A program made the position numbers and the translations under genes. 64,000 nt of DNA from Ligustrum vulgare (lineage: Eukaryota > Streptophyta > Magnoliopsida > Lamiales > Oleaceae), in the NCBI GenBank assembly GCA_963555705.1, contig OY743172.1, positions 67,476,602 through 67,540,601 on the forward strand. Direction: 5' to 3'. Under the pieces are notes generated by a model that had not been told where the DNA came from, ran no database searches, and saw nothing but the letters and a program-made list of their open reading frames with translations. Shown here piece after piece: positions 16,716 through 59,035 of the stretch (positions are counted from its first letter, which is position 1; each line of letters begins with the position of its first letter).

Positions 16716-16717
16716 TT

Positions 16718-21300: not shown

Positions 21301-21512
21301 TTATGACATTGTCAACTGCTTTATAATATTAATGGTTCGATTTACTATTTCGAGTTGTTTTTCATAAAGGTTTTAAATTTTATCCGCCATTACAGTTTAT
21401 TTAATGTTGGCAAAAATGAATTTCAATTATTTCTTCCGCAAAAATATTAATTGAAATTTTAGAAAAGATTAGAAAGGTGGTGAACTGGGTATACGGAACT
21501 CGGGGCGCTACA
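18348..21512 (+). repeat. Solo LTR D (Tekay-like family, same as C)
   Basis: It runs TGTAGCGACC...CGGGGCGCTACA, 3165 bp, with a perfect ATACT duplication (18343-18347 and 21513-21517) and no internal region. It sits inside B gag-pol, so it is younger than B. It shares both ends and most modules with C. GTAGCGAC at 18349 has an inverted partner GTCGCTAC at 18405. Open frames near 18805 and 19292 are low-complexity LTR sequence. Confidence 0.93.
20822..20933. repeat. 56-bp tandem duplication in LTR D
   Basis: Two adjacent 56-bp units (20822-20877, 20878-20933) differ at one base and contain GTGGGCGGGGGTGATACCGTG. They lie in a GC-richer variable block (20640-20990) that also has two diverged copies of an AACGCTACAAAA-containing unit. 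Confidence 0.85.
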
Positions 21513-22291
21513 ATACTTGTGCGGAAGGATGGAATCATGGAGAGTGATAGTGAGGAAGAGGATTATAGCGATATGCCAGCGTTAGAGGAAGTATGTGATG
21601 ATGAGGATGTGTTATCCGCGGAGCATGGTGAGTTATTAGTGGCAAGGCGAGCTCTTAGTGCTCAAATCAACACGGATGATTTGGAACAACAACGGGAGAA
21701 CATATTCCATACACGATGTCGCATTAATAACAAGGTATGTAGTATGATTATTGATGGTGGTAGTTGCACTAACGTCGCTAGTACTACGCTTGTTGAAAAA
21801 TTAGGATTACCTTTGTTAAAACATCCTAAACCTTATAGGCTTCAATGGTTAAATGATAGTGGAGAAATTAAGGTGAATAGGAGGGTGTTGGTAAGTTTTT
21901 CTATTGGTAGCTATGTGGATGATGTTCTGTGTGATGTGGTTCCTATGCATGCCAGCCACATTTTGTTGGGCAGGCCTTGACAATATGATAGGAAGGTGAT
22001 GCATGATGGGTATAAAAATAGGTATAGCTTTACCAAAGGGGGAAAAACCATTACACTTGCACCATTGACGCCGTCACAAGTGTATGAAGATCAAATAAAG
22101 TTGAAAAATGATGGAAAAAAAACAGTGAGGGAAAATGAGAGGAAGAGAGTTGAGGCCACGACCTCAGAAAAAGGAGAGGAAAAGAGAGTTGGAGCCACGA
22201 CTCCAGAAAAAGGAGAGGCGAGAGAAAAAAGGAGTGTTGGGGTACATACCTCAGAAAAAGGAGAGGGAGCGAAGAGTGCCAGAAAAAAAAA
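21513..22291 (+). pseudogene. Element B gag end, protease and repeat linker
   Basis: The frame resumes after D with an acidic stretch (MESDSEEEDYSDMPALEEV) and a retropepsin-like protease: CSMIIDGGSCTNVAS, where D-G-G replaces the usual D-S/T-G, and the ILLGRP motif near 21960. A TGG-to-TGA change at 21978-21980 ends the frame at GRP-W. Beyond it, a linker has three imperfect copies of a [11 protein letters not shown] unit. The frame is lost again at a nine-A run (22283-22291), the likely slippage site. Confidence 0.85.
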
Positions 22292-23724
22292 TGAGTTTTT
22301 ACACAAAAAGTAGTGAAGTCAAGAAAGCATTTATGGAAAAACGACCAATGGTCCTTTTATTGTACAAGGAATCATTCCTTGCATTTGATGAAATTAACAA
22401 ATCCCTCCCTAGTTTGGCTATTTCTTTATTGCAGGAGTTCGAGGATGTGTTTCCAGATGACATACCTAGTGGGTTACCACCCATTCGAGGTATTGAGCAT
22501 CAGATTGATTTTGTACCTGGAGCAGTCATTCCAAACCGTCCAGCTTATAGGAGTAATCCCGAGGAGACGAAGGAGCTTCAAAGGCAAGTGGAGGAATTAA
22601 TGAGTAAGGGGTACATAAGGGAGAGCATGAGTCCATGTGTCGTACCTGTGTTACTTGTACCTAAAAAGGACGGGACTTGGAGAATGTGTGTTGATTGTAG
22701 GGCCATCAACAACATAACGGTAAAGTATCGTCATCCTATTCCTAGGTTAGATGATATGTTGGATGAATTGCATGGCTCTAGCATATTTAGTAAAATTGAC
22801 CTTAAGAGTGGTTATCATCAAATTCGAATGAAAGAAGGAGATGAGTGGAAAACTGCTTTTAAAACTAAGTATGGCCTGTATGAATGGTTAGTAATGCCTT
22901 TTGGACTTACTAATGCACCTAGCACATTTATGCCTTTAATGAATCATGTTTTACGTGCATTTATAGGTAAATTCGTTGTAGTTTACTTCGATGATATCTT
23001 GATATATAGTAAAACTTTGAATGAGCATGTGGAGCATGTTAGGTGTGTGCTTGTGGTTTTGAGGCAAGAACAACTTTTTGCTAATTTTAAAAAGTGTAAT
23101 TTTTGCATGGAAAAAGTTGTGTTTCTTGGCTATGTGGTTAGTGCTAAGAGAATAGAAGTAGATGAAGAGAAAGTCAAAGCTATTAAAGAATGGCCAACAC
23201 CTAAAAGCATAACTGAGGTTAGAAGTTTTCATGGCTTGGCTAGTTTTTATAGGCGCTTTGTTAAAGATTTTAGCACGATTTCCGCACCACTCACAGAAAT
23301 TGTCAAAAAAAGTGTAAGGTTTAAATGGGGAGTAGAACAGGAGCATGCATTTGAGACTATTAAAAATATGTTGTGTAAAGCACCGGTTTTATCACTTCCT
23401 AACTTTGACAAGGCATTTGAGATTGAATGTGATGCCTCAGGGCTAGGCATTGGAGCTGTTTTAATGCAGGATCGGAGGCCAATAGCCTATTTTAGCGAAA
23501 AGCTAAAGGGGGCTGCTCTTAATTACCCCACATATGATAAGGAGTTATACTCACTTGTGTGCGCTTTGGAGACATGGCAACATTACTTGTGGCCACGGGA
23601 GTTCGTGATTCACACCGATCATGAGTCCTTGAAGCATTTGAGGGGTCAAGCTAAGTTGAGTAAGAGACGTGCAAGGTGGGTAGAGTTCATCGAAACATTT
23701 CCCTATGTCATTCGGTACAAATAA
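22292..23724 (+). pseudogene. Element B reverse transcriptase and RNase H
   Basis: This is the core of pol: it makes DNA from element RNA and removes the RNA strand. RT blocks are complete: [55 protein letters not shown] with the first catalytic Asp, [11 protein letters not shown] and [11 protein letters not shown] with the FDD pair near 22986. RNase H follows ([42 protein letters not shown]). A CAA-to-TAA change at 23722-23724 interrupts the usual [17 protein letters not shown] stretch. It is open apart from this stop. Confidence 0.92.
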
Positions 23725-25215
23725 GGTAAGGAAAATGTGGTGGCAGATGCATTGTCTCGAAGGTATGTTCTTTTAAATTCTTTAAATTCTAAATTGCTTG
23801 GATTTGAATACATTAAAGACATGTATGCTAATGATCTGGACTTTTCTAATATTTATGAATCATGTGGTAAAGGGGCTGTGGATAGGTTCTTTAAACATGA
23901 TGATTATTTATTTCGAGAAAATAAATTGTGCGTCCCTAGGTGTTCAATGAGAGAGTTACTTGTGAGAGAGGCTCATAGTGGAGGCTTAATGGGTCATTTT
24001 GGGGTTAAAAAGACTATCGAAATCCTAAGCGAACATTTCTATTGGCCTAAGATGAAGATTGATGTGGTTCGGGTTTGTAATAGATGCATTACTTGCAAGA
24101 AGGCTAAATCTAGGATTAAACCCCATGGATTATATATGCCTTTACCTGTACCTAGTGAACCTTGGGTCGATATCTCTATAGATTTTGTTTTGGGATTACC
24201 TAGAACTAAGAGGGGAAGAGATTCTATCTTTGTGGTAGTAGATCGCTTTAGCAAAATGGCACATTTCATACCATGCCACAAAACTGATGATGCTACAAAC
24301 ATAGTTGAAATTTTCTTTAGGGAAGTCGTGCGCTTACATGAGATTCCTAAAAGTATCGTATGTTAAATTCCTTAGTCATTTTTGGAGAGTCTTGTGGAAC
24401 AAGCTAGGAACAAAACTAATTTTCTCTACAACTTGTCACCCACAGACCGATGGACAGACCAAGGTAGTAATAGGACAATGATTCAATTATTGCGCACAAT
24501 AATCAATAAAAATTTGAAAAATTGGGAAGAGTGTTTACCATTTATTGAATTTGCATTTAATAGGGCTATACATTCTACTACTTCTTGTTCACCATTTGAA
24601 ATCGTTCATGGTTTTAATCCGCTAACACCATTGGATTTAATTCCTTTACCTGTGAATGAACGTAGTAGTTTAGATGGAAAGAAAAAGACTGAGATGGTTA
24701 AATCACTCCACGAAAAGGTGAGGTTGGCGATTGAAAAGAAAAATGAACATTATGCATCGCAGGCTAACAAAGGGAGAAAATGCGTCATATTTGAACCCGG
24801 TGATTGGGTTTGGGTACACTTGAGGAAGGAGCGGTTTCCAGAACAACGCAAATCAAAGTTACAACCGCGAGGGGATGGTCCATTCCAAGTGATTGAAAGG
24901 ATCAACAACAATGCCTATAAACTCGATCTTCCTGATGAGTATAATGTGTCGGCTTCATTTAATGTTTCTGATCTATCTCCATTTGATGCAGGTACAGATT
25001 CGAGGTCGAATCCTTTCAAAGAGGGAGGGGATGATGTGATCCAGACCACGAATGCAAGCCCACACAAAGATCCGTTGATGATCAAAGGAGGACCGATGAC
25101 CCGATTGCAAACAAAAAGGTCCAACGAAGCAATGGACAAACTAGTGCAAGAAACAATGGCAAAAACAATGTTCGTGTCATCAAAAGAAGCAAGTCCCATG
25201 TTGGGGCCGAGCTAA
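23725..25215 (+). pseudogene. Element B integrase, with C-terminal tail extending into the 3' LTR
   Basis: The frame continues with VVADALSRR, then the HHCC zinc-binding region ([26 protein letters not shown]) and the catalytic core start ([18 protein letters not shown]). Near 24360 a small deletion plus frameshifts remove the SDRD block that carries the second catalytic Asp. The core then resumes (INKNLKNWEECLPFIEFAFN), followed by the GPY/F-like segment (RGDGPFQVIERINNNAYKLD). The last 61 codons lie in the 3' LTR and include GGPMTRLQTKRSNEAMDKLV. There is no classical chromodomain; the tail resembles CRM-clade proteins by recollection. Confidence 0.87.
25018..25031 (+). promoter_or_regulatory. 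Polypurine tract of element B
   Basis: AAAGAGGGAGGGGA directly precedes the 3' LTR and lies inside the integrase frame. Confidence 0.85.
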
Positions 25216-25911
25216 AACGACGAGTGGATCAACCTCATTCAAGCCGTCGAAGAAAATTGTAAAGTTTCGAAATTCACGGCCGTAACCTATAAGTCTTATG
25301 GCCGTATAGAGCCCACTGCTGAAAATTGAGAATTTGAAGGAAGTTGGACTTACGGCCGTAAACCTCATTGTCACGGCCGTAATGAAGCCTCGGGCTGAAA
25401 ACAAGAATTTCAGAAATTAAGACTTACGGCCGTAAAATATGTCTCATGGCCGTAATGGTTAAGCAGTAAGGTATTTACGGCCGTAAATAAAGTAGTTACG
25501 GCCGTAACGGCTAAAATGCATAAATATTAATTTTTATTTCTTTCCTTATTTTTAGGTATTTGTTTCCTAGTATAATTAAAACTCTTTAGTCAGGTTTTGA
25601 CCCTATTTATAGGATGTAATTTTCATTATTCGACACACAACTTTGATATTATAACTGAGAGGCTATTTTGCTTTTACAATCTTATTCTTTATTGAATGAA
25701 ATCCGAACTTGCGAGTTATTCTTATTTGTTCAAATCTCGGTGAGAATTATTATTGCTTGTGATCAAGAGGTCAATATATCCTAGTGATTGTATTGGTTGC
25801 TTGGTTCAATTAATTTTAATTGGATCCATAAATCGTGGTTTCTTGGCGTTCTTGGGTCGATTTCAATATTGTGTGGGTTGCGTAGCTACAATTGCTACGT
25901 GGTTTGCATCA
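25032..25911 (+). repeat. 3' LTR of element B
   Basis: 880 bp, TGATGTGATCC...GCATCA, collinear with the 5' copy. Its palindrome array lies at 25274-25507. Several sites that are mutated in one LTR are intact in the other (for example site 4 GAAATG versus GTAATG), so the ancestral array was close to perfect. Confidence 0.92.
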
Positions 25912-35259: not shown

Positions 35260-35340
35260 TGTATCGATACACTGAAATCATGAAAAGTTTCTTCTTACCT
35301 CTACGCATCGATACATTAAGTGTATATTTATCGATACATT
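35260..35340. repeat. Cluster of TGTATCGATACA palindromes
   Basis: A perfect TGTATCGATACA at 35260-35271, CATCGATACA at 35306 and TTATCGATACAT at 35329. This lies just upstream (in minus-strand sense) of the pseudogene start at 35123. Confidence 0.8.
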
Positions 35341-36015: not shown

Positions 36016-36040
36016 TGTATTGATACAATGTATCGATACA
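36016..36040. repeat. TGTATTGATACA / TGTATCGATACA pair
   Basis: A one-mismatch copy at 36016 abuts a perfect copy at 36029, 13 bp apart. TATCGATACATG follows at 36175, immediately before the insertion site of K. Confidence 0.85.
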
Positions 36041-36196
36041 TGTAGGAGTGCCTTTAAAGACTAATTTACAATCTACATATTTGTACCTTGTTTTAATATT
36101 CAAGATTTTCTCTTTAAATAAAAGATACCTTCCGAAATTCTACAATATGCAAGGTTGACTATACCTTCTGTGTATATCGATACATGTATACATACC

Positions 36197-37602: not shown

Positions 37603-37877
37603 ATACCTATTTCTAAACAGAGAACTGAGGCTATATGTGTATGTAGATATTGTTTTGGATCCACCTTCCTTTTTGAAAAAGAATAGCTTCTGTTAGAACT
37701 TTCTACTTTAGTAAGTATTTCTGAAGCGTTAACTTTGGAATTTAAACTTATCACAAACCATCCCACTAGTGAATAGCTGTTGAATTACATTCCTATTCTG
37801 AAGAATTGATTTTGATCATTGCATCTACTTGTATCGATACTTTGTATCGATATCAGCAAAATGTAGTTAATTCTTGC
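37603..37877. other. Short old spacer between K and H
   Basis: No gene is seen. It contains two TGTATCGATA-type palindromes at 37831 and 37844, 34 bp before the insertion point of H. Confidence 0.6.
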
Positions 37878-38538
37878 TGTTGACCACAAAATCTGGTAGG
37901 TCCTTGGATCAACACGTCTCAGCTCCTCCCTCTTGAACACGTGGATCTCCTACGCACTAGGACAAACAATCAACTTGCAAAGGGGGCTGAGGTGGCTCCC
38001 GTTTGCACTCCGATGCCTAAGTCAATACTCATTTCAAGTAAATACAAATTGGGTGCGGGAAATATAAGTGTGTAAAAGAGAGAAAAGGGAGTGAGATGTT
38101 ATATATCAATTTTCTAGCCTTTTTCTTGGAGACAAATGTGTTCTATTTATATCTAAAAATCATATGTTGGGATCACGACATGTGTTAGACTTTACATGTG
38201 GCTTCACCCTAACCGCTGGTCAGGTTAACCATTTAATTGGTCATAATCATTACATCCTATTATAGGGTTACGGCTGACATCCCATCCATGGTAAAGGCAG
38301 TGTCCCATCTAGTTGCAACTTGTTTCCAATTCCTACTTTGCTGACATTATTTTCCAACGAACAGCCAATTCTAGGAACATATTTCGGATGTCACCGCCTA
38401 GAAAAAGTGGTTTGGCTAGAGGGGTTCGGCTTTCAGTCTTCCTCGACCGTGCAATAACTTGTAAGGTTGTGGGTCTACTAGGTGACTGGCAGGTCTTACT
38501 AGTAGTGTATCAAGTTTAATTTAGGCATGGTCGTAACA
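37878..38538 (-). repeat. 3' LTR of element H
   Basis: On the plus strand it reads TGTTGACCACAAAATC...GTAACA. A minus-strand TATA box (TATAAATAG) lies near 38150. It is collinear with the 62376-63036 copy, with scattered transitions. Confidence 0.9.
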
Positions 38539-39295
38539 CTAGTCCCTCAGATATGGTTGGTTCATTCATGTGCAAACCATATTTGCTGAATATTGATATG
38601 TGGATTTATCTTTGTTGGGTCAGTGCTTGAACCTTCATTCCAAAGGTTGTGTACCCCCCAAGTTCCGGGGGTGGCTCGACCGAAGCAGATGTGGTAGGGT
38701 GGCATAACTGGAGTCTCAAAATAATATAGGATATAAAGATCCTTCTGCAAATAATCGATTATTTTTAGTTTTGGGGGGTTGCCCCTTGAGTTTCTAGTAA
38801 TTATAGCGCGTGTGTTGTTCTCATGAATATAGACGATTTTCTTTCTTTCAAATTCTTACCATTTGGCGCTTCATTTAGCCTATCAATAAAGGCTCCTTGC
38901 CCAACATTCACATGTGGAGGGCCAGGGTTAATCCAGATTTTGTCATCTAACGATCAAGATCTGCAGCCTAATTTTATAAAACCCTTGTCTTCCTTTGCTT
39001 CTCCCTTTTCACCTTTTCTAATCCGAAAAAAATCTTAGAAACTTGCTTTAAATCCTTCTTTGCTTCTTCACTGCAAGCCTTTTGACATTTTGTCAAGAGT
39101 TGTTGTCCATTGCTACTCACCCTGCCACATCGCTCATTCAAAGAATTCCCGCCTCTTGACATGTAGGTAACTCCTTATTTATGTTTGTGTGCTTCTCTCC
39201 TCCTCTTTTTTTATTTTATTTTTCGGAGTGCGTAGGGTGCAATTCTTTTTGCGTGTTGCACCCGTGGGTAAGCTTGGTTTTGGGGGAAGATGGAG
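38539..39295. other. Element H internal region between the 3' LTR and F
   Basis: This is non-coding sequence of H that lies upstream of the plus-strand extra ORF and may hold its promoter. No clear TATA box is identified. It ends at the TGGAG target of F, which lies in an AAGATGGAG context, so F landed at or beside the presumed start codon of the extra ORF. Confidence 0.5.
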
Positions 39296-40176
39296 TGATG
39301 TGATCCGAAGTAGGAGACCAAAGGAGAAGTCGACCTATGGGCAATGTGACAGTGATCTACGAGGGAAACGGCACAAGTTTCATGCTGGAGTCGAGCCGAG
39401 AAGGCGAAAGGATCAAGCCGAGACAAATAATCAAGAAATTGTGCAGAAAGACACTTACGGCCGTAAGAAGAAACTTCACGGCCGTAAAACTCAAGTTCAC
39501 GACCGTAAAACTCAAATCCTCACGGCCGTAACTCCGCCTCGGGTTTGAATTCAGAATTACAACATTTTATAGTTACGGCCGTAATGAAAATGGTCACGGC
39601 CGTAAGACTTATGCAGAAGGACATTTACGGCCGTAAATCATTTCTCACGGCCGTAACATCTAATTTTCCAGATTTCGCGTATTTTAATTTAATTCCGTTT
39701 TTAAATTATTTACTTCCATATTTTGGGCCCAAATTAGCGGCTAACCCTAGTTAGGTCAATTGTTACATTATATTACCTTGTATTTCATTATGGAACAACA
39801 ACTTTTGAATTATTGAATGAATGTGAGATTTTCTCTCTCTAAAAGGAGGATTCCTTTTTTTTTCTTGTTCTTGAAGAACAATTCATAGAACTTATCAAAT
39901 ATTTTCTTGAATATTTGTGGCGTTCCAATCAGAAACTTATCAAGGAATTTGGCATCCCTTGTGGCGTCTCGAAAACCTCGGTTCTTCAATCCGCATCGTC
40001 AATTTATTGCGTCGTGATTGTTGGGTCCAGGTCCTATCGTCAATCTTATTTTAATTTCCGTCTATTTATTCGTGTTCTTGTTATTTTTCGTGTCAGATCT
40101 GATTTAGATCTTTCCTAGGGTTTTAAATTTCGTTATTCCGCGCGTTCGACGAGATTCCCCGACTGGGATCGCGTCA
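39296..40176 (+). repeat. 5' LTR of element F
   Basis: TGATGTGATCC...GCGTCA, 881 bp. It contains the eight-site palindrome array at 39455-39656. It is matched by the 3' LTR except for C/A at about 39384 and G/C near 40165. Confidence 0.94.
39455..39656. repeat. Phased palindrome array in the 5' LTR of F
   Basis: Eight sites of TTACGGCCGTAA or TCACGGCCGTAA start at 39455, 39476, 39497, 39520, 39573, 39594, 39625 and 39645. Spacings are 21, 21, 23, 53, 21, 31 and 20 bp. Only the third site has a core change (GACC). The array starts 159 bp into the LTR, exactly as in G. Confidence 0.93.
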
Positions 40177-40178
40177 TC

Positions 40179-40190
40179 TGGTATCAGAGC
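40179..40190 (+). promoter_or_regulatory. Primer binding site of element F (initiator tRNA-Met)
   Basis: TGGTATCAGAGC, two bases after the 5' LTR. Confidence 0.92.
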
Positions 40191-40466
40191 TTGGATCTAT
40201 TTCAGATTCTTGCGTTTCTTGATTTTTCTTGATTTTTTTCTTGTTCTTCGCGTTCTTCGTGTCAGTCATATATTTTTCCAGTTTGATCCATAAGAGTCAG
40301 TCCCAAAAATTCAAAAGTGTTATTCTTCTTCGTTTTTCGTCCAAATTCAGTTCCGTTTTTTCTGCCATACTCGTAGTCAAATTCTCTGGCAGATTATAAA
40401 AAAAAAAAATCCGAAAATTCCAAATATTTCCTAAATATTCCGAATTCGTTTCTGTAAGGACTAATA

Positions 40467-42884
40467 ATGTCTAGCAGACGGGATTCATCATCTTCATCAG
40501 TTGGGGACAACCAGGGAATTTATAAAAGGGAACCAGCAGCTCCGTCAACGAGCCACAACAAACGACCGGAAGGTATGAATAGAGTGAATAAAAATGATGT
40601 AGGTGTGATGGAGACGATACATGAGCAGTTTGAGAAGTTGATGACTAGGATGGATAGGCAGGAGGAAACTATTAACAAGTTGCGTAGGGAACAAACTCGT
40701 GCGGGTCCTAGAGTTAGGAGGGAAGACCGGAGGGATCATAGGGGGAGATATAATCAAAGGGTTGGATATGAGTTTGATGATGAAGAGTTTGCGAGTGAAG
40801 GAAGTAGTACCCAATCATCTGTGGATAGTGTAAGGAGGAGAAGGGGTAGAGGAGATAGGAATGAGAGGGCAAATAATAGAAGAGATCGTGGTGATCGGGA
40901 TGAGATAGATGATAATCTGGGTAAAATAAAAATGTCTATTCCACCTTTTCATGGGAGGAGTGATCCGGAGGCTTACCTAGATTGGGAGAAGAAGGTAGAA
41001 TTGATGTTTGATTGCCACAATTATTCTGAAGGAAAGAAGGTGAAACTAGCGGTTGTTGAGTTCACCGATTATGCCATTAATTGGTGGGATCAGTTGGTGA
41101 AGGATCGGAGGAGGAATGGTGAAGGACCGGTGGATACATGGCGTGAGATGAAAACCATCATGAGGAAGAGGTTTGTCCCAAGCCACTATCATAGGGATAT
41201 CTATCAAAGGTTGCAGGGGCTCACGCAGGGTTCTAGAAGTGTAGAGGAATATCATAGGGACATGGAGGTCGCCATGATTAGGGCCAACGTGGTGGAGGAT
41301 CGGGAAGCTACAATGGCTAGATTTTTGAGTGGGCTGAACAGGGATATTGCCAACATTGTTGAGTTACAACATTATGTGGAACTGGAAGACATGGTTCACA
41401 TGGCAATGAAGGTAGAAAGGCAATTAAGGCGGAAGGGGACATCTAAGCAATCACCAGGAACTTATCCTACATCACAACCGAGGAAGGATCACAATGATGA
41501 GCACGTCCCGAAGGGAAAGGAGGAACTTCCAACTAAAGGTAAAAATATTTCTGACTCTCAACCTACTAGGGATAGAAATATTAAGTGCTTTAAGTGTTTG
41601 GGGTCGGGCCATATAGCATCACAGTGTCCAAATAAAAAAGTAATGCTTTTGCGTGATAATGGTGAAATTAGTTCTGAGGATGAATTTAAGGGAATGCCTA
41701 AGTTAGTGGATATTGGGACTAGTAGTAGCGATGAAGAGGGGTTAACTTATGCGGTGAAAGGGTCCCTTGTGAATAGACGTGTCCTAAGTTCTCGAACTAA
41801 GATGGTTGAGATTGATGAACAGCGGGATAATCTTTTCCACACTAGGTGTTTGGTAGGGAAAAAGGTTTGTGGGATGGTAATTGACGGGGGAAGTTGTACT
41901 AATGTGGTTAGTACATTATTGGTGGAGAAGTTGGGATTGCCTAAGGTGAAACACCCCAACCCCTATAAATTACAGTGGTTAACCGAGTCGGGAGAACTTA
42001 AGGTGAACAAGCAGGTTAATATTAAATTCACCATTGGGGGTTATAGAGATGAGGTGGTGTGTGATGTGGTCCCTATGAATGTTGGGCATATTTTATTGGG
42101 AAGACCATGGCAACATGATAGGAGAGTGGTGCATGATGGGTTCAAAAATAGATATTCTTTTGTGAAGGGTGGAAAAAGGATCACTCTTGCTCCGCTAACA
42201 CCTAAAGAGGTCCAAGAGGACCAATTGAAAATAAAGAGCGAGTTTGAGGAAAAAAATAAGAGAGTTGAGGCCACGACCTCAGAAAAAGGAGAGGGTGTGA
42301 AAATTGAAAACAAGAGGGTTGAGGCCACGACCTCAGAAAAAGGTGAGCTTGAGAGTACAAAGAAAAAGAAAAGAGAGTCCACCACAAAAATGAGCTTATT
42401 TGCATTTGCTAACACATCCCTCCCTAGTTTGGCTAATTCTGTTTTGCAGGTACTACAACCAAATTACAAAACTAAGGCCAAAAGGAAAATTAATTGCCGG
42501 ACAGGACAACCCCAAGGGTTGATGTATAGCACCAAACAGGAACAGGTCCCTCGAACCAACGAAAGAAAGAGTTACATAAAGGAGAGGCCATATACGGATT
42601 CGAGGTCGAATCCTTTCCAAGAAAGGGGGGATGATGTGATCCGAAGTAGGAGACCAAAGGAGAAGTCGACCTATGGGCAATGTGACAGTGATCTACGAGG
42701 GAAACGGCACAAGTTTCATGATGGAGTCGAGCCGAGAAGGCGAAAGGATCAAGCCGAGACAAATAATCAAGAAATTGTGCAGAAAGACACTTACGGCCGT
42801 AAGAAGAAACTTCACGGCCGTAAAACTCAAGTTCACGACCGTAAAACTCAAATCCTCACGGCCGTAACTCCGCCTCGGGTTTGA
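40467..42884 (+). CDS. Gag-protease polyprotein of element F, 805 aa, no reverse transcriptase
   Basis: This is the structural and protease protein of a non-autonomous retrotransposon; it would form particles and process itself. From ATG 40467: a Ser-rich start, a coiled coil near residues 55-75, an Arg-rich linker, the Retrotrans_gag core at about 152-325 (PPFHGRSDPEAYLDWEKKVE, YAINWWDQL), a zinc knuckle CFKCLGSGHIASQC near 374, and a retropepsin site VIDGGSCTNV with Asp near 473 plus ILLGRPW near 545. Two copies of [11 protein letters not shown] follow. Where pol should begin there is a 49-residue segment, then DSRSNPFQE. The last 84 residues are encoded by the 3' LTR and contain Tyr/His-Gly-Arg-Lys heptads. 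No stop or frameshift is present. Confidence 0.92.
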   Translation: MSSRRDSSSSSVGDNQGIYKREPAAPSTSHNKRPEGMNRVNKNDVGVMETIHEQFEKLMTRMDRQEETINKLRREQTRAGPRVRREDRRDHRGRYNQRVGYEFDDEEFASEGSSTQSSVDSVRRRRGRGDRNERANNRRDRGDRDEIDDNLGKIKMSIPPFHGRSDPEAYLDWEKKVELMFDCHNYSEGKKVKLAVVEFTDYAINWWDQLVKDRRRNGEGPVDTWREMKTIMRKRFVPSHYHRDIYQRLQGLTQGSRSVEEYHRDMEVAMIRANVVEDREATMARFLSGLNRDIANIVELQHYVELEDMVHMAMKVERQLRRKGTSKQSPGTYPTSQPRKDHNDEHVPKGKEELPTKGKNISDSQPTRDRNIKCFKCLGSGHIASQCPNKKVMLLRDNGEISSEDEFKGMPKLVDIGTSSSDEEGLTYAVKGSLVNRRVLSSRTKMVEIDEQRDNLFHTRCLVGKKVCGMVIDGGSCTNVVSTLLVEKLGLPKVKHPNPYKLQWLTESGELKVNKQVNIKFTIGGYRDEVVCDVVPMNVGHILLGRPWQHDRRVVHDGFKNRYSFVKGGKRITLAPLTPKEVQEDQLKIKSEFEEKNKRVEATTSEKGEGVKIENKRVEATTSEKGELESTKKKKRESTTKMSLFAFANTSLPSLANSVLQVLQPNYKTKAKRKINCRTGQPQGLMYSTKQEQVPRTNERKSYIKERPYTDSRSNPFQERGDDVIRSRRPKEKSTYGQCDSDLRGKRHKFHDGVEPRRRKDQAETNNQEIVQKDTYGRKKKLHGRKTQVHDRKTQILTAVTPPRV
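42619..42631 (+). promoter_or_regulatory. Polypurine tract of element F
   Basis: AAGAAAGGGGGGA ending directly at the 3' LTR; it lies inside the ORF. Confidence 0.85.
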
Positions 42885-43512
42885 ATTCAGAATTACAACA
42901 TTTTATAGTTACGGCCGTAATGAAAATGGTCACGGCCGTAAGACTTATGCAGAAGGACATTTACGGCCGTAAATCATTTCTCACGGCCGTAACATCTAAT
43001 TTTCCAGATTTCGCGTATTTTAATTTAATTCCGTTTTTAAATTATTTACTTCCATATTTTGGGCCCAAATTAGCGGCTAACCCTAGTTAGGTCAATTGTT
43101 ACATTATATTACCTTGTATTTCATTATGGAACAACAACTTTTGAATTATTGAATGAATGTGAGATTTTCTCTCTCTAAAAGGAGGATTCCTTTTTTTTTC
43201 TTGTTCTTGAAGAACAATTCATAGAACTTATCAAATATTTTCTTGAATATTTGTGGCGTTCCAATCAGAAACTTATCAAGGAATTTGGCATCCCTTGTGG
43301 CGTCTCGAAAACCTCGGTTCTTCAATCCGCATCGTCAATTTATTGCGTCGTGATTGTTGGGTCCAGGTCCTATCGTCAATCTTATTTTAATTTCCGTCTA
43401 TTTATTCGTGTTCTTGTTATTTTTCGTGTCAGATCTGATTTAGATCTTTCCTAGGGTTTTAAATTTCGTTATTCCGCGCGTTCGACGAGATTCCCCGACT
43501 CGGATCGCGTCA
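42632..43512 (+). repeat. 3' LTR of element F
   Basis: 881 bp, near-identical to the 5' copy. The Gag-protease ORF ends at 42884 inside it, and its palindrome array is at 42791-42992, so the first four sites also serve as codons of the ORF. Confidence 0.94.
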
Positions 43513-48545: not shown

Positions 48546-48938
48546 CTAAGGTACATAATGGAGGTCGTACTGACTTATTTCTATCGCCCCCTTCATTAAC
48601 CTTCTGGACACATCTGGTTTCTGTAAGAATTTTCTCATAGGGAAATATGTGAGTACTCGGATTAAGTGTGGCTGAAAGTAGGGACGGAGTTTATGAGCCG
48701 TTGTGATTAAAGCTAAACTGAGTTTTTCCATGTCTGGGTAGTGCGTTTCGGGGTCCAGCATGGCTTTAGTCACATAATATATCGAAATTTGACTCCCATT
48801 CTCTTCTCTAATCAACACAGAGCTAACAACCTCCTTGGAAATGGCTAAATAACGAAAAAGCGGTTCGTCGACCTTTGGTTTGGACAGTAGAGGGGCCCGC
48901 CCCAAGAATGCTTTCAGTTTGAAAAAAAGCTTGCTCAC
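48546..48938 (-). pseudogene. Element H first RNase H
   Basis: Minus-strand block EPLFRYLAISKEVVSSVLIR, YYVTKAMLDPETHYPDMEKL and HKLRPYFQPHLIRVLT, the standard Ty3/gypsy RNase H that follows RT. It is joined to RT by a frameshift near 48850-48930 and ends in a stop before the second RNase H. Confidence 0.82.
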
Positions 48939-50020
48939 ATTCCTTTGTCCATTGGAACCGTCTTCCTCCTTTTAAGACCTTAAAAAATTGTAAGCACTTG
49001 TCATTGGACTTGGAGACGAATCGACTTAAAGCAGCAACCCTTCCGGTTAAGCTTTGTACTTCTTTAGGGTTTTGAGGCGAGATATCAAACAAAGCTTTAA
49101 TCTTATCCAAATTGGCTTCAATTCCCCTCCTGTTCACCATGAAACTAAGAAACTTTTCAGATGCTACCCTAATGCCGCACTTCACATGATTAAGCCTCAT
49201 CTGGTATTTTCTTAATATATCGAAAGTATCTGATAAATGGTCATCATTTTCTGAGGCGACCATACTTTTGACTAGCATGTCGTCCACATATACTTCCATG
49301 GTATTTCTGAGTTGCTTTGAGAATATTTGATTCACTAACCTTTGGTAGGTGGCCCCTGCATTTTTCAACCCGAATGGCATGGCCCTATAACAATAGAGTC
49401 CCCTGTCTATAATAAACGAGGTGTGCTCCTCATCTGATTTATGCATGGGGATTTGATTGTATCCCGAGTATGCTTCCATAAAGCTCAGCATCTCATGACC
49501 CGCCGTGGAGTCAACTAATTGATCAATCCGAGGTAGCGAAAATCTTTTTTTTGGACATGCTTGGTTTAAATTTGAAAAATCAATACATACCCGCAGCTTT
49601 CCACTTTCCTTGGGGACCAAAACAGGGTTTGACACCCACTTCGGATAACGGGATTCTCTGATGAAATTATTTTTCAATAGCTTCGTCACCTCCTCTTTCA
49701 AGGCTTCATATTTCTCCGAGCTTATTGGCCTCCTCTTCTGCCTATGCCCAAGAAGTCTTGGGTCAAGTTGGAGCCTGTGACATGCTATCTTAGGGTCAAT
49801 TCCAATCATGTCTTTGTGTTTCCAAGTGAACACATCAAGGTTTTGGAGCAAAAAACTTTTCAGCTGCTCTTTGTATTGAACCGATGAATCCTGCCCAATC
49901 TGTAACTCCTTTATTGGGTCGTTTGGATCAACACAGAAGCATTCCAACCTTTCGGCAGGGGTAGAGCAACTATCGCCTGTCATTCTGGGATCTAGATCTG
50001 CCAGATCTTCCTCCTATGCC
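48823..50020 (-). pseudogene. Element H reverse transcriptase
   Basis: The frame reads DVFTWKHKDMIGIDPKIACH, NPVLVPKESGKLRVCIDFSN, ACPKKRFSLPRIDQLVD, YRAMPFGLKNAGATYQRLVN and YVDDMLVKS (49273-49290), typical of Tat RT. The motif A block reads LSFMEAYSGYNQI, where the family has Asp (SFMDAYSGYNQ), so the first catalytic residue is now Glu. This would likely disable the enzyme even without the frameshift near the end. A TAG near 50013 lies upstream. Confidence 0.85.
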
Positions 50021-50438: not shown

Positions 50439-52310
50439 TGTAACAACTCGAAAATTTCTTGTAACAACCTGAGAATTTCGTACCTTAGTTCATTTATTGA
50501 GGGAGTCGGAATCAAGTATTTTCTTAGAAAAGAGCCAATTTCATGTTTCATATGATGATATAGTATAGAAATTATAAGAAAAGGGGATAAATGGACCTTT
50601 ATTGTAATTATTGGAGATTAAGTTGGCATAAAAGAAAGTTATATATGAGGTTTGAGCTTAATCAGATTGATTATCATAGTTGAGGACTAGGCTGGAAATT
50701 TTAGAAATTCCTATTGATTACAGTTTTGTCATTATGATAAACACGAATTTGGGATTATTTTGTGGATTATGTAGTTATCTTTGGCCACTGTAAGTTATAC
50801 CATTTTATAGCTCATAATGAGATCTAAGTATTGATATCAAGTTTGATCGCATTTGAGTTCGGGAAGTGCCTAAAAAGTCAAGGTAAAGTAGTTGGAATGC
50901 TGAAAATCCTCAAAATTTTCCAAAGTATAAATTGGTTTTCAAGCAGTCATTTTTGGATATGTAGAATGGGCGGTATAATGATTCGCTTTCTTTGCATGTG
51001 TAACCGTTATGAAGTTTGAAGTGTGAAATTTACAACAATATAAAGATTGGGCAAAACAGAGCTCGTCTTGACCTTCAAATATTGACCCGAAAGTGGCAAC
51101 TTAAGATGGAAAAATCTAGAAATTTTATTAATAAAATAATGGAAAAATGGACACTTGGCATTCCCATATTATTACCTTGAGGGCATGTTTGGCACATCAA
51201 TTTATTTTGGTGAGAAGTAATTATTTACCAAAAGTTTTAGGGCTTGGATGATAGAAAAGAAAGCTTTGAGGACTTAGTTTCAATTTATAAGGTCTAAATT
51301 ACATAGGATAAGAAGTATGGGGGTTTATTTGACATATACATTATATATACCCAATTATATGAACTTTAGCCCCAATTCTTCTTCTTTTCTCTGTGGAGAC
51401 AAGAGAGAACCTGAGAGAGAAGCTGCTCGATGAAAAATGGGGAAGAAGATGGAAGAAGGGAAAATTTTCTGCTGGACGAGGCTATCAGAAGCCTGGACAG
51501 AGGCATAACGAGAGGTTTCTAGTAGCCTTTCGTAGTTCTGGGCAGATTGGTCTAAACTGCGAAATCCTCATTTTTGGATGGATTTTCTAGGTAAAACTTG
51601 GACTAAGAAGTAAGATTTTAGTATATTGAAATTACTCTGACACTTGATTAAATGATTCTAGGTGTATTGACTCAAAATCATCTTATCTAAGTTAGAGGTG
51701 AGTGAAACTTGATATGTGTAATATTGTGTTAAGTTTTTCGTATAGTGTTGGAGTATTATTCTTAAAATTACAGAATTTAATATGTTCTTTATTGATTATA
51801 TTGATTTGCTAAACTATGTTTCAAGATTTAATGTTAAGAACATAAATGTCTTCTAAGTGTTTGACGAAATGTGAGTAAAGCATTTATGTGTTTTCTTGCA
51901 ATTTTTGTTATGTAAAGTTTAGTTACTGCAGTAAAATAATATCCTTGACTGATTAGAGTTATATAATTATGATTATTTAATACTTAATGTTGGATTTCAT
52001 GCTTCTCCTTAACTTTTTTACTTAGTCCTAATCTAAAGTTAATTTTTGTTCAATAGCTTATGTTTCTTTTGGGATCTAAAGAGCTAATGCAATAATTTTG
52101 TGTTTTATTTAATTGCATGTTGGATCCTTGATTTCTATGAGGGTTATCATCACCAAGACAATATTGCATGTGTATAAAATGAAGTAAAACAAGCTCTAAA
52201 CTTCAAAAGTGACTTAATTTACCTTAATCTAGAATTTTCAAATTCTTGAATAATGTTAGTGATATAGTTTAAAGTTAATTTCAGATTCTTGAATTCTTGA
52301 ATAATGTTAC

Positions 52311-53926
52311 TGATGCGTGTCTAATGCACCAAAATAATAAATAATTCCTTACTCGCTAAATATTAATTAATAATGTAGTAGTGAGAGTAAGGGTCGATCC
52401 CACGAGGAACGGAAACTAATTTTAGTTGTTCGATCAATTAGAATGGAATGGGGGTTTGTTGTTTGAATTGTTTGAATGAAAAATATGCATAAAAATAAAT
52501 AATTAAATATGACTAGAGAATTAATATGAGAAGAAATCTTGTTCTCGGGTTCGGTTGTGCCCTCAATTAATGTTATATCTTTCCTTGTAACGTGTTTCTA
52601 TCCCTAATTCAATTATCAATCATAAATAATCAACAAGCTCTGATTATCTAAATTCTTCCTTATGTGTATTGATTCAAAACAAGCTCTTCGAACCAATTCT
52701 AGCCACAGACAATCCTAAACAAGCTCTTAGGATTTAATACACGACTAATATGAAAATCTAGAAGAATAGATTGAATTGGATCGTTAATTACACAAGATCG
52801 AATTAATCAATCCAAGTTGAATTATTACTAAACCTGTAAGAGATTTATTTTCTACTAAAGTAAAGATTCAATGACAATTACAGATCAAGAATCTAAACAT
52901 AGCATATTCATGAATCCAAAGATCAATAATCCAATTGGCCAAATTAAACTATTAATCAAATAAACTCAATTGAACATTCAAAACATAATAATCCAACAAT
53001 TGAAATAAAGGAATAAATTTACGCTACTAATTTGTAGGAAAATAAAATAACATAATCAAGTTAACACAACTTCCCCTCTGAACAAGATATGGAATTTAGC
53101 CTAGCATGGTTGTGGTAGATTCTTCAAGTTGTTTCATGAATTCCATTGTTGTTAATGTTCTTTGGCTTGAAAATCTCTCAAGAATGCTCTATATTTTTCT
53201 CTCAATTTTCTTCAATGTGTAGCCTCTTTCACAATATTTTTTCACCTTTAATACTCCCAAAATCGTGCCCTATCTTTATCCCAAAGATATACCAAAGATA
53301 GACCTTGAATCAGATAAGGAAATCCCTTGGAGAGCAAGTTACGGCCGTAACTTTCCTTATTACGGCCGTAATTTGGATTCTAAAAATTTTCGGAATTTGG
53401 AAGTTACGGCCGTAACTTTGTAATTTACGGCCGTAAGTGCATTTCTGCCGAGAAGCGCCTGTATTCGATGTTTTGGTCATAACTTTCCCTGCCGAAGTCC
53501 GATTGTGGTGATTCAAGTTGCGTTGAAAAGAAAACTCAAATATCTACAATTCTTATTGAAATAGCTCTTCCTAAATTCTAAAGTCTTCTATGAAAAAATT
53601 GAGCTTCAATCTATAACTAAAATTCATGATCACAATCCTAGCGGGTTTTTGATTTCTAACTTCATCCCAAACCTTCTTTGACCATAATTTTTGCATCTAA
53701 TCTTCTTCCCACATGCCATTATTGATTTGGAGCTCTTTGAATATGCCCTTGAACTTACTTCTTGATTTCTGGTATTTCTTTGGTCATGTTTCCTTTCTTT
53801 TTGTTCTTTGCGATCATGTATAACACAATAAATGAAAATGCATTAAACGATACTTCAATAGGATCAAACCAATAAAAAAAATAAGATAATAAGTGAATTA
53901 AATACGTGCTAATAAAGCACTTATCA
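52311..53926 (-). repeat. Solo LTR J (Athila/Tat-like style)
   Basis: 1616 bp with a perfect GTTAC duplication (52306-52310 and 53927-53931). On the minus strand it runs TGATAAGTGC...ACACGCATCA, like LTR K in start and in the CCTCGTGGGATCGACCC block near its end. It carries four TTACGGCCGTAA palindromes although its sequence is otherwise unrelated to the B/F/G LTRs. No coding sequence. Confidence 0.87.
53339..53436. repeat. Phased palindrome array in LTR J
   Basis: Four perfect TTACGGCCGTAA copies start at 53339, 53360, 53404 and 53425. Spacings are 21, 44 and 21 bp: two pairs with the same internal 21-bp spacing seen in B, F and G. Confidence 0.93.
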
Positions 53927-54653
53927 GTTACTTACATATTTTAAAGTTATATTCAGATTCTTGAAACTGTTTATTTAGAGTACTTTAAAGTAATGTTTTA
54001 GATTCTTAAATAATGTTGATTTGATACTTTAAAGGAGATTTTCAGATTTTTGAATGATGATATTTGGGGAATTTAAAGTTAAATTCAGATTCTTAAATGA
54101 AGATAATTGAGTATTTTAAGTTATTTTCAGACTTTGGATGAATTCATTAGCACTTTGTTACAATTACATCTTTAAGTAGATGTGTCAAAGTTTATTTTTA
54201 GATTCTTTAAATTATTTCCAGCAACTTGTAAGTTTCTTGATCTTTATAACTTGTCTAAATTTAAGTTTACTCTGATTCACTTTAAATTTAACAAGTTTTT
54301 CCAATTGAATGGTAGTTTCTATTTAATTATGTGAAGCACATGTGAGCTTAATTGATATACTTAGTAGTTAAAGCTCCTATTATGTTAAGTTCAAAGAATT
54401 CTATCTTGCATGCAAAGACTTGAGCAAGATTAATGTGCTTTCATGTTGAACAATTAAAGTAAATGGAAGTTTTGACTTCATAAGCATCAGATGTTGAGAT
54501 ATAACTCTCATGCAAAATGTATTCATATTTCACTCTCTAAGCATGCAGTTAGGTTCAAAAGTATACCAAAGAATGTGCATGAATAAGAATAGAACTCTAA
54601 GATGTTAAGTATTCACCAGTTTGGGATTCTAGATGCCCAAGGGAATGATTCCC

Positions 54654-54922
54654 GTATTGTACCAGAAGGGTAATAGATTTGTGCCGGAAGGGTATTCGAT
54701 CTTATATTTACCAGAATTGTACCGAAAGGGTACTAGATTTGTGCCGGAAGGGTATCAGATCTTATATTTATCAGAATTGTACCGAAAGGGTATCAGATCT
54801 TATATTTATCAGAATTGTACCGGAAGGGTACTAGATTTGTGCCGGAAGGGTATCAGATCTTATATTTATCATAATTGTACCGGAAAGTAGATTTGTGTCG
54901 GAAGGGTATCAAATCTTATATT
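54654..54922. repeat. Tandem repeat in LTR I
   Basis: About five units of 60-63 bp built from TTGTACCGGAAGGGTACTAG, ATTTGTGCCGGAAGGGTATC and AGATCTTATATTTATCAGAA; one unit is shortened. The frame happens to stay open, but the repeat is inside a non-coding LTR. Confidence 0.88.
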
Positions 54923-55337
54923 GAGGGCTCTGTGAATACTTACTTTTAGAGTAGGGGCCCAAAGAAATTAATAAATAAAGTTAGAGAGTCCATGCATTAC
55001 ATCATGACATGCATATTCTTTTGACTACATTATGTAATTTGAGAATGATATGTAATATGTGAATTGAAGTATTCTTATGTTGAGATTTCATGAGACAAGA
55101 TGTTTTATATGGTACAGGATACTTGAGATGATTTTGGACAGATTTATGTGAATTACTTATTCTCCTCAAAGTTAAGAGGTAAAGTGTAATTTGAGAATGA
55201 TATGTAATACCCGAATTCATGTATTCTTATGTTGAGATTTCATGAGACAAGATGTTTTATATGATAAAAGATACTTGAGATAAATTCTGGACAGATTTAT
55301 GTGAATTACTTATTCTCCTCAAAGTTAAGAGGTAAAG

Positions 55338-56292
55338 TGATGTGATCCGGACCAGGCATCGAAGGGCGAAGTCGAGCCATCGGCAATATGACAATGATCT
55401 ACGTGCAAAACGGAGTAAGTTTCATGTTGGAGTCGAGCCGAGAAGGCGAAAGGATCAGGCCGAGGCAAATAATCAAGAAATTGTGCAGAAAGACACTTAC
55501 GGCCGTACGAATAAACTTCACGGCCGTAAAACTCAAATTCACGGTCGTAAATAAAAATCCTCACGGCCGTAACTCCGCCTCGGGTTTAAATAAAGAATTG
55601 CAGAAATTGTCACTCACGGCCGCAAATCTCTCAGTCACGGCCGTAAATCAACAAAAGGGGAACACTTACGGCCGTAAGAGTTGCAACACGGCCGTAACCT
55701 GCATTCTGTTTCAGATTCACGCGTTATTTTTAAATTCCATTTTTAATTATTTATTTTCCTATTTTAGTATTTTAGGTCAATAAGGATTCTGTTTTGAGCC
55801 CAATTAGCGGCAAACCCTAGTTTAGGTTTTCTTGCTTATTTATATTTCTTTTGATCATTGTAAACATTAGACAAGTTTGAGTTGATTAATAAAAATTTGA
55901 GTTGAGAGAGTTTTCTCCAATTAAAAGGTTGAGGAGTCCCTTTTGTGTTCTTCAAGAACAAATCCGACTTATCAAATATTGTGAAAATATTTGTGGCGTT
56001 GTACTTATCAAATATTCGCGAGAATATTTGTGGCGTGTCCGATTAGAATCTTATCAAGGAAATTAACAAGTCCTTGTGGTGTTTCGAAAACCTTGGATCT
56101 CGATTCCGCATCGTCAATTTCTTGCGTCATGAATCTTGGGTCAAGGTCCTATCGTCAATCTATCTTTTAATTTCTGTTCATTTATTCGTGTTCTTGTTAT
56201 TTTCGAGTCAGATCTGATTTAGATCTTTCCTAGGGTTTTAGATTTCGTTATTCCGCGTTGTTCGACGAGATTCCCCGACCAGGATCACGTCA
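55338..56292 (+). repeat. 5' LTR of element G
   Basis: TGATGTGATCC...CACGTCA. Palindrome sites start at 55497, 55518, 55539, 55561, 55614, 55635, 55666 and 55686 (spacings 21, 21, 22, 53, 21, 31, 20). A TATTTATAT box lies near 55838. The last third, around the GTGGCGT words, is close to F. Confidence 0.93.
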
Positions 56293-56294
56293 TC

Positions 56295-56306
56295 TGGTAT
56301 CAGAGC
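56295..56306 (+). promoter_or_regulatory. Primer binding site of element G (initiator tRNA-Met)
   Basis: TGGTATCAGAGC, two bases after the 5' LTR. Confidence 0.92.
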
Positions 56307-56685
56307 TTGGATCTATTTCAGATTCTTGCGTGTCTTGATTTTCTTGATTCTTTTCGTGTTCTTCGCGTTCTTCGTGTCAGTCATATATTTTTCCAGTTTG
56401 ATCCATAAGAGTCAGTCCCAAAAATTCAAAAGTGTTTTTCTTATTCGTTTCTCGTCCAAATCCAATTCCGTTTTTTCTGCCATACTTGTAGTCAAATTTT
56501 CTGGCAGATTAAAAAAAAATCGAATTTTCCGAGAATTTTCTAATTTTTTTTACTTTTCGTATCTTCCATAAATTCCTTGATTGTTGATCCTTGGTTTGTT
56601 CTTGGGTGAAATTTGAAGGGATTAAGTGTGATACACGAGTGAAAATAAACACGTGAGGAATATTTGATTCTTTTGAGAACTAACA

Positions 56686-57575
56686 ATGTCTCGCAGGGAG
56701 AAATCTTCATCATCTTCCTCATCAGGTAACAAAAAGAATCTAAAGTTGTTGGAGGTCATGCAGGAACAAGTTGAGAAGTTAATGGCTAAGATGGATAGGA
56801 GGGAAGCAATTATTTCCCAACTACGAAAGGAGCAATCTAGGACGGATTCTAAAGCTAGAAGGCGTGAATGTCATGCTAGGTTTAGAGATGGGTGGATGAC
56901 AGGTCATTGAGGGGAAAGGAAGAAGCAAAGTCACATCGATCAAAGAGGGAGAGTAGTGATCATGTTCACAAAAGGAGGGAGGAACCGACAACCAAAGGTA
57001 AAAATAATTCTGATTCCAAGGCTCTCAAGGGTAAAAATATTAAGTGCTTTAAATGTTTGGAACGGGGTCACATTGCACTTGATTGTCCACGTAAGAAGGT
57101 TAGGTGTGATAGTGAAGGGTCGAAAAATGTTGTGGTGGGTGAGTCAATTATTGATAGGCATGTTCTTAGCGCTAAGCGTAAGGCGAATGTTTTGGAAAAT
57201 GTGGATGGGCAAAGGGATAATATTTTTCGCACTAGATGCTTAGTGGATAAAAAAGTTTGTAGCTTGGTGATTGATGGGGGAAGTTGTACTAATGTAGTTA
57301 GTACAATGTTGGTGGAAAAATTAGGCTTACCTTTAACGAAACATCCAGCGCCTTATAAATTACAATGGTTGACTGAGTCAAGGGAAGTTAAGGTGAAGAG
57401 ACAGGCCTTAGTGGCATTTTCTTTGGGTGGGTATTCGGATGAGGTAATTTGTGATGTGGTGCCAATGCAAATTAGTCATATACTGTTGGGGAGACCTTGG
57501 CAACATGAAAGGGCTGTGCTACATGATGGGTATACGAATAGATACAGCTTGGTAAAAGGGGAAAAAAGTTTACTC
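56686..57575 (+). pseudogene. Element G gag (core deleted) and protease
   Basis: ATG 56686 opens MSRREKSSSSSSSGNKKN and the coiled coil seen in F. The frame is lost near 56890, where the whole Retrotrans_gag core (about 170 residues in F) is missing. In the next frame come KCFKCLERGHIALDC (zinc knuckle), the protease site LVIDGGSCTNVVS near 57271 and ILLGRPW near 57482. A one-base loss in the G run near 57558 ends the frame at VKGEKSLL. Confidence 0.88.
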
Positions 57576-57577
57576 TA

Positions 57578-58297
57578 ATGCCACTATCTCCAACTGAAGC
57601 CCTGAAAGATCAATTGAAAGTGAAAAGTGAGTTTGAGGGGAAAAATAAGAGAGTTGAGGCCACGACCTCAGAAAAAGGAGAGGGAGTGGAAATTAAAAAT
57701 AAGAGCGTTGAGGCTACGACCTCAGAAAAAGGAGAGGGAGTGAAAAGTAAAGAAAAGAGGGTTGAGGTTCAAACCTCAGAAAAAGGAGAGACTGAGTGCA
57801 AAAATCAAAAGAAAAGAGAGTCTACCACAAAAATGAGTTTATTTGCACTTACTCACACTAACACACCCCTCCCCAGTTCTTTAAATTCTGTTTTACAGGT
57901 ACCGAAGTCAAACCATGAACTTAAGGCGGGAAAGATATCCCTTGGAAAAAATGAGCAGCCTAAAAGTCTAAAGGAGTGCACGAAATTTAAAAATGATCAT
58001 CGAGCCCAGGAAAGCAGGAGGAATTTGAAAAGCCGACCTAAAATGGATTCGAGGTCGAATCCTTTTCAAGAGAGGGAGTATGATGTGATCCGGACCAGGC
58101 ATCGAAGGGCGAAGTCGAGCCATCGGCAATATGACAATGATCTACGTGCAAAACGGAGTAAGTTTCATGTTGGAGTCGAGCCGAGAAGGCGAAAGGATCA
58201 AGCCGAGGCAAATAATCAAGAAATTGTGCAGAAAGACACTTACGGCCGTACGAATAAACTTCACGGCCGTAAAACTCAAATTCACGGCCGTAAATAA
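57578..58297 (+). pseudogene. Element G protease-to-LTR linker with three peptide repeats
   Basis: The third frame of the polyprotein. It has three copies of a unit close to [12 protein letters not shown] (near 57650, 57705 and 57760), then KKRESTTKMSLFAL, the 49-residue segment that replaces pol, DSRSNPFQE, and 72 codons inside the 3' LTR. The replacement has the same length as in F and matches it at scattered positions (for example KA, QP, RP). Confidence 0.85.
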
Positions 58298-59035
58298 AAA
58301 TCCTCACGGCCGTAACTCCGCCTCGGGTTTAAATAAAGAATTGCAGAAATTGTCACTCACGGCCGCAAATCTCTCAGTCACGGCCGTAAATCAACAAAAG
58401 GGGAACTCTTACGGTCGTAAGAGTTGCAACACGGCCGTAACCTGCATTCTGTTTCAGATTCACGCGTTATTTTTAAATTCCATTTTTAATTATTTATTTT
58501 CCTATTTTAGTATTTTAGGTCAATAAGGATTCTGTTTTGAGCCCAATTAGCGGCAAACCCTAGTTTAGGTTTTCTTGCTTATTTATATTTCTTTTGATCA
58601 TTGTAAACATTAGACAAGTTTGAGTTGATTAATAAAAATTTGAGTTGAGAGAGTTTTCTCCAATTAAAAGGTTGAGGAGTCCCTTTTGTGTTCTTCAAGA
58701 ACAAATCCGACTTATCAAATATTGTGAAAATATTTGTGGCGTTGTACTTATCAAATATTCGCGAGAATATTTGTGGCGTGTCCGATTAGAATCTTATCAA
58801 GGAAATTGACAAATCCTTGTGGTGTTTCGAAAACCTTGGATCTCGATTCCGCATCGTCAATTTCTTGCGTCGTGAATCTTGGGTCAAGGTCCTATCGTCA
58901 ATCTATCTTTTAATTTCTGTTCATTTATTCGTGTTCTTGTTATTTTCGAGTCAGATCTGATTTAGATCTTTCCTAGGGTTTTAGATTTCGTTATTCCGCG
59001 TTGTTCGACGAGATTCCCCGACCGGGATCTCATCA
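58081..59035 (+). repeat. 3' LTR of element G
   Basis: 955 bp, collinear with the 5' copy. Its palindrome array is at 58240-58440. The polypurine tract AAGAGAGGGAGTA (58068-58080) precedes it. Confidence 0.93.

Follow-up and report, generated by a model that had tools for sequence, protein, structure and literature searches.

The LTRs of the retrotransposons in this stretch of DNA carry rows of a 12-letter palindrome, TYACGGCCGTAA, upstream of their likely promoters, and successive sites are separated by nearly integral numbers of helical turns. With a probability of roughly 0.6, judged from sequence, these arrays are U3 enhancer modules that would form a cooperative binding platform for a putative, probably host-encoded protein. 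The window, that is, the whole stretch of 64 kb that was analysed (36.9% GC), reads as plant DNA rich in transposons, and the named relatives of the gag ORF of element C (among the 120 listed of 1,202) are plants, for example Hibiscus, Fagus, Gossypium and Quercus. Three Ty3/gypsy elements (A, C and D), each with a pair of LTRs and perfect 5-bp target duplications (TSDs), were found along with a further array-bearing unit (E), and the array-bearing retrotransposons apparently belong to two unrelated families. The features are given below.

15834-25911, plus strand: element A, TSD TAAGA
15834-16715, plus strand: 5' LTR of A, 882 bp, with TATTTATA at 16407
16076, 16098, 16152, 16173, 16226, 16247, 16278 and 16299, plus strand: sites of the 5' array of A
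17241-25215, plus strand: coding remains of A, split over several ORFs and characterised outside 18333-22128 (gag, reverse transcriptase, RNase H, integrase-type C-terminal SH3)
25032-25911, plus strand: 3' LTR of A, 880 bp, array at 25274-25507; the last pol ORF stops at 25215, ahead of the array
39296-43512, plus strand: element C, TSD TGGAG
39296-40176, plus strand: 5' LTR of C, 881 bp; primer-site motif TGGTATCAGAGC at 40179
39455-39656, plus strand: array under study, 5' LTR of C, sites at 39455, 39476, 39497, 39520, 39573, 39594, 39625 and 39645
40458-42884, plus strand: ORF of C, 808 aa, gag with weak zinc-knuckle and protease matches and without a reverse transcriptase match; enters the 3' LTR across its first four sites
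42632-43512, plus strand: 3' LTR of C, 881 bp, array at 42791-42992
52311-53926, minus strand: E, 1,616 bp, TG...CA ends, TSD GTTAC at 52306-52310 and 53927-53931
53339-53436, minus strand: array in E, four perfect 12-bp palindromes at 53339, 53360, 53404 and 53425 (LTR sense positions 491-588)
55338-59035, plus strand: element D, TSD TAAAG
55338-56292, plus strand: 5' LTR of D, 955 bp, array at 55497-55697, TATTTATA at 55837
58081-59035, plus strand: 3' LTR of D, 955 bp, array at 58240-58440; an ORF at 57542-58297 crosses its first three sites

The placement of A, C and D in Ty3/gypsy is based on paired LTRs with TG...CA ends, 5-bp TSDs, a primer-binding site and a purine tract. The motif TGGTATCAGAGC, which we take to be the complement of initiator tRNA-Met, lies 2 bases beyond each 5' LTR, and a purine-rich stretch is visible by eye ahead of each 3' LTR. 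The domains of element A follow the order of this superfamily, with gag and reverse transcriptase-RNase H before integrase (gag; reverse transcriptase and RNase H, then SH3_Tf2-1). Of the two ORFs tested in D, one matches a protease and, weakly, a zinc knuckle, and the other matches nothing; because reverse transcriptase was seen neither in these nor in C, both elements are taken as non-autonomous. The 5' and 3' LTRs differ at 29/880 compared columns in A, 2/881 in C and 10/955 in D, and C, with the fewest differences, is therefore the youngest. Scans of viral contigs returned no relative of the A reverse transcriptase or of a piece of the C gag. Separately, a 662-bp pair (37878-38539 and 62376-63037) is 93% identical across 24.5 kb and encloses minus-strand ORFs at 60339-61286 and 48823-50013 that appear gypsy gag- and reverse transcriptase-like by eye; these repeats are possibly the LTRs of a large element that received the C, D and E insertions. 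Two tandem arrays (54656-54922 and 55033-55339), with an GTACCGGAAGGGTA-type unit at periods of ~22, 38 and 60 bp and a 152-bp unit, immediately precede element D.

Each LTR of A, C and D contains eight 12-bp sites, and E contributes the seventh array of the window; the six large arrays are LTR pairs of three related elements and count as three samples, not six. On the plus strand, all 50 matches to TYACGGCCGTAA with at most 1 mismatch fall within the seven arrays, compared to a mean expectation of 0.15 (20 Markov simulations), and 2 of the 52 array sites exceed 1 mismatch. For TTACGGCCGTAA with at most 3 mismatches, 64 matches (52 inside the arrays, 12 outside) were obtained against 14.1 expected, and none of 100 shuffles gave as many. 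The hexamer CGGCCG occurs 44 times in the window, once outside the arrays, relative to a mean of 1.66 (50 Markov simulations). Elsewhere, a scan of genome contigs gave at least 120 stretches, with only bacterial and archaeal titles among the 80 matches listed, and a scan of viral contigs gave 8 contigs; these matches are taken as chance or unrelated. A second palindrome, TGTATCGATACA, which contains TATCGATA, has 21 occurrences with at most 2 mismatches against 2.2 expected (10494-10549, 11051, 12761-12786, 35260-35338, 36016-36184, 37830-37854 and 63884-63929). It is several times paired at 13, 21-23 or 44 bp, and its surroundings are unalike by eye.

Across 24 sites (one LTR each of A, C and D), information drops at the edges of the 12 bp. 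Outside these edges, more than 0.5 bit is found only at positions -9 (A in 19/24) and -3 (A in 16/24), and the A at -9 is mostly the end of the preceding site. Within the site, position 2 is T or C and position 11 is always A, and many sites are therefore not strict palindromes, although the four in E are. The preliminary description had the second base alternating between T and C, which does not hold strictly (element C reads T C C C T C T C), and its most constant half, CCGTAA, is so only slightly, by a small margin over ACGG. The pattern fits recognition of double-stranded DNA by a protein. Pairing of the self-complementary sites as RNA, within or between transcripts, is very improbable: the RNA of LTR elements has U3 at its 3' end and the sites are palindromic, but the combination of C at position 2 (14/24) with A at position 11 (24/24) breaks a pair, and DNA helical spacing would be meaningless for RNA.

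The arrays in C have spacings of 21, 21, 23, 53, 21, 31 and 20 bp in both LTRs (39455-39656 and 42791-42992), and those in D have 21, 21, 22, 53, 21, 31 and 20 bp (at 55497 and 58240). In A, the values are 22, 54, 21, 53, 21, 31 and 21 bp in the 5' LTR (at 16076) and 22, 54, 21, 53, 20, 31 and 21 bp in the 3' LTR (at 25274). The order of the sites is the same in the three elements, and so is the spacing with one exception, a step of 54 bp in A that measures 21 bp in C and D, a difference of 33 bp. In agreement with the preliminary description, all eight sites at 39455-39656 are present, its spacings for three arrays are the values measured at 39455, 55497 and 16076, and every spacing lies within about 2 bp of a multiple of 10.5 bp (greatest deviation, 2.0 bp). 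Its further statement that all sites face one side of the helix is roughly correct; at 10.5 bp the sites drift by up to 3 bp cumulatively, and 10.6 bp gives a better fit for A and C. Among tested periods of 6.0 to 39.9 bp, the best are 10.6 (A), 10.6 (C) and 10.5 bp (D). Under random placement with fixed ends, the strength at 10.5 bp corresponds to p values of 0.0003 (A), 0.003 (C) and 0.00001 (D), which exaggerate the significance, as the lineages share ancestry and the 21-bp steps may stem from duplication; the basis for phase is three related samples plus E.

Since the 21-bp steps may in part be old tandem duplications, independent support for helical phase comes mainly from the 31-, 53- and 54-bp steps. 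It is also conceivable, though unlikely, that the site alone is selected and that the regular spacing is a mere trace of 21-bp tandem duplication with no role for phase. At 39447-39531, Tandem Repeats Finder detects arrays with a 21-bp period and 3.5-4 copies, the spacers between sites 2-3 and 3-4 of element C are similar (AACTCAAGT, AACTCAAATCC), and by chance a step would come this close to a multiple of 10.5 with a probability of 12.5% each for 53 and 31 and 29% for 54. In contrast, 53, 31 and 54 are not multiples of 21 and yet fall within 1.5 bp of a multiple of 10.5, most spacers within one array are unalike by eye, and the spacing of sites 5-8 survived complete spacer turnover between C and D.

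This turnover is part of a wider contrast between sites and spacers. Between lineages, sites are 85-94% identical and spacers 47-59%, which bears out the variable sequence between sites in the preliminary description. Sites differ at 12/96 (A-C), 14/95 (A-D) and 6/95 (C-D) columns and spacers at 51/104, 55/104 and 43/106, respectively (Fisher p about 1e-8 for each pair), with a bias in favour of the sites, because the C motif served to define them and they fix the alignment. For sites 5-8 of C and D, the spacers agree at 9/36 columns, the chance level, and the sites at 45/48 (p 3e-11), whereas the 74 bp just downstream agree at 48/73 (p 9e-5). Despite the spacer mismatch, the steps of 53, 21, 31 and 20 bp are identical in C and D. 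Either the spacers turn over faster than other U3 sequence or one array arrived from another lineage by template switching; in either case, spacing outlasted the replacement of spacer sequence. When the site mask was shifted circularly over the stretch of sites 4-8, 1 of 137 shifts (shift 0 included) reached the observed contrast. The expected depletion of indels within sites 4-8 is not significant (2 vs 3.0, 2 vs 3.3 and 0 vs 2.4 expected).

After insertion, the sites decay. Between the 5' and 3' LTRs of the same element, 9/286 site columns changed relative to 32/2,430 other columns (p 0.03), with 7 of the 9 changes in A, and the between-lineage and within-element patterns differ at p 1.0e-4 to 1.7e-4 for the three lineage pairs. 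The sites are thus unprotected once inserted, and their conservation therefore arose before insertion, imposed on active lineages: they are mutable and yet were retained in lines that kept transposing. Eight of the nine changes are transitions, and five of the nine lie at CpG and two at the outer C of CCG, the pattern that methylation of plant DNA would produce. This signature and the CpG-rich palindromes would also fit recognition by a host repressor or the host methylation machinery. However, a silencing target should be lost in lineages still transposing, and such recognition is improbable as the function of the arrays. The silencing platform named in the preliminary description is a less likely reason for conservation, because selection acting at the level of the element would not preserve sites that shut it down.

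The position of the arrays is consistent with enhancer modules. A TATA-like motif follows the last site after 96 bp in A, 111 bp in C (TTATATT at 39768) and 139 bp in D; it was chosen from several matches, and A has another at 16374. The last pol ORF of A terminates 59 bp short of the first site, and the array lies between this stop and the TATA-like motif. The arrays, being upstream of the TATA-like motif and in A beyond the end of pol, are therefore in U3, with the transcription start presumed to follow. The LTR pairs and TSDs of A, C and D likewise agree with the earlier assignment of the sites to retrotransposon LTRs. A scan for sigma-70-type promoters and terminators is uninformative for plant DNA. 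In the C LTR at 39723-39755, upstream of the TATA-like motif, GGGCCCAAA and CTAACCCTAG are found, candidate counterparts of two elements known from growth-gene promoters in plants, site II and the telobox, and a similar pair is seen in D at ~55795-55830.

In C, an ORF from the internal region runs across the first four sites of the 3' LTR, and in D another crosses the first three, as would be seen if the sites encoded a 7-residue repeat tail of a gag or pol protein. The preliminary description had read the first four sites as codons with this period; in the C ORF only the first three share a reading frame, because 23 is not a multiple of three, and its conclusion that coding alone does not explain the sites is upheld by the stop of the A pol ORF before the array. 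In addition, sites 5-8 lie beyond the listed ORFs of at least 200 aa, clustered repeats of such a kind are absent among the 120 listed relatives of 1,202, and a search with the D tail found no protein relative (one candidate, none scored). The A stop and the position of sites 5-8 outside the listed ORFs refute a coding role in A and at sites 5-8, and as a general explanation coding is hardly credible. The arrays of A are non-coding, and the ORFs that cross the first sites of C and D appear to be incidental. Of the 120 relatives scanned, 35 have a pol tail of the type NPFEE...GPITRSRAKK, and its counterpart in A, GGPMTRLQTKR, is encoded in a stretch of the A LTR that is absent from the C and D LTRs (an 83-column gap).

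The motif recurs in E with unrelated flanks. Based on its TG...CA ends, its target duplication and the lack of an internal region, E is best read as a solo LTR of another family with its sense on the minus strand. The window contains no second copy of E of at least 150 bp, and its family is therefore putative. The 910 bp around its array (53051-53960, sites masked) gave no match to the A, C or D LTRs, and yet E shares with them both the motif and the 21-bp pairs: its spacings of 21, 44 and 21 bp amount to two such pairs 65 bp apart. Its best period is 21.6 bp, and on its own E falls short of significance for phase (p 0.07). Tandem-repeat units of the TTCAGATTCTTGAATAATG type flank E on both sides (52255-52288 and 53927-54131), and E seems to have inserted into such a repeat.

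Several known systems resemble these arrays. Tnt1 and Tto1 are Ty1/copia elements with U3 motifs that differ from this palindrome, that of Tto1 reportedly being a 13-bp element. As in their tandem U3 enhancer repeats, short motifs lie in U3 upstream of a TATA box; here, however, each Ty3/gypsy LTR repeats a palindrome with a GC core eight times at close to helical phase, and the palindrome recurs in an apparently unrelated solo LTR. What was found is thus a repeated motif in U3 upstream of a core promoter, of the Tnt1/Tto1 kind, with a presumed start site. CACTA (En/Spm) elements, which have terminal inverted repeats and 3-bp target duplications, carry subterminal arrays of ~12-bp sites near the promoter that are bound by TNPA, whereas the present arrays are in LTRs with 5-bp duplications and not at CACTA termini. 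To our knowledge, no transcription factor family has this site. Whole-word literature searches, which reach few subscription papers and miss motifs inside longer strings, returned one unrelated paper each for the palindrome and its 8-bp core and nothing for the half site or CGGCCG, and a search for helical turn with LTR found nothing. Regulation of transcription by repeated U3 motifs is already known (PMC3601003), and U3 is variable and regulatory according to PMC12786077 and PMC1838419; the palindrome, its phasing and its recurrence look new.

Two further systems link such sites to host control. In ONSEN (ATCOPIA78), a heat response element in the LTR is bound by HSFA2, which couples the element to a host programme (PMC3907296, available portion). 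The reading proposed here is alike in placing a host factor site within an LTR. The ONSEN motif differs (nTTCnnGAAn), no long phased array is mentioned in the available part of that source, and the LTRs of ONSEN 1 and 2 are, in the same part, without CG sites, whereas the sites here are CpG-rich. The VANC target arrays of VANDAL transposons share a short motif in one orientation at high density, tandem turnover and a mainly non-coding location, and differ in belonging to transposons with a TE-encoded VANC protein and a YAGTATTAY motif (PMC5735166, as far as its available text goes). By analogy, the palindromes could be an anti-silencing platform read by a demethylating or methylation-sensitive protein encoded by the element or the host. 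The two CpGs per site, the orientation and density of short motifs as reported for VANC21 targets in the accessible text of PMC5735166, and the observed/expected CpG ratio of the LTRs without sites (0.88-1.23 vs 0.69 for the window) favour this possibility. Nevertheless, it is quite unlikely: among the listed ORFs of 200 aa or more in the three elements (the broken A being characterised outside 18333-22128), no extra ORF and no candidate for a VANC-like gene was seen, and recurrence of the motif in a second LTR family argues for a factor of the host.

For U3 enhancer modules, the following mechanism is proposed, in which we infer protein binding, a host origin of the protein, cooperativity and activation. 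A sequence-specific protein would occupy each TYACGGCCGTAA site as one dimer or one molecule. Occupancy of one helix face at steps of 21, 31 and 53 bp would allow neighbouring proteins to touch or to jointly contact the transcription machinery, predicted to be at the TATA-like motif 96-139 bp downstream. A more speculative and rather unlikely extension is that one host protein, possibly methylation-sensitive, reads TYACGGCCGTAA and that unrelated LTR families each built phased arrays for it; an element would then preserve its sites and their phase while spacer sequence changes more quickly than other parts of the LTR, perhaps escaping LTR-directed small RNAs.

If the enhancer reading is right, the arrays would point to a new plant factor on which retrotransposons depend and would supply a ready probe for it. 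Because spacers were replaced while spacing was kept, they would also provide a natural test of the helical-phase rules of plant enhancers. Finally, unrelated parasites would be shown to converge on one host site.
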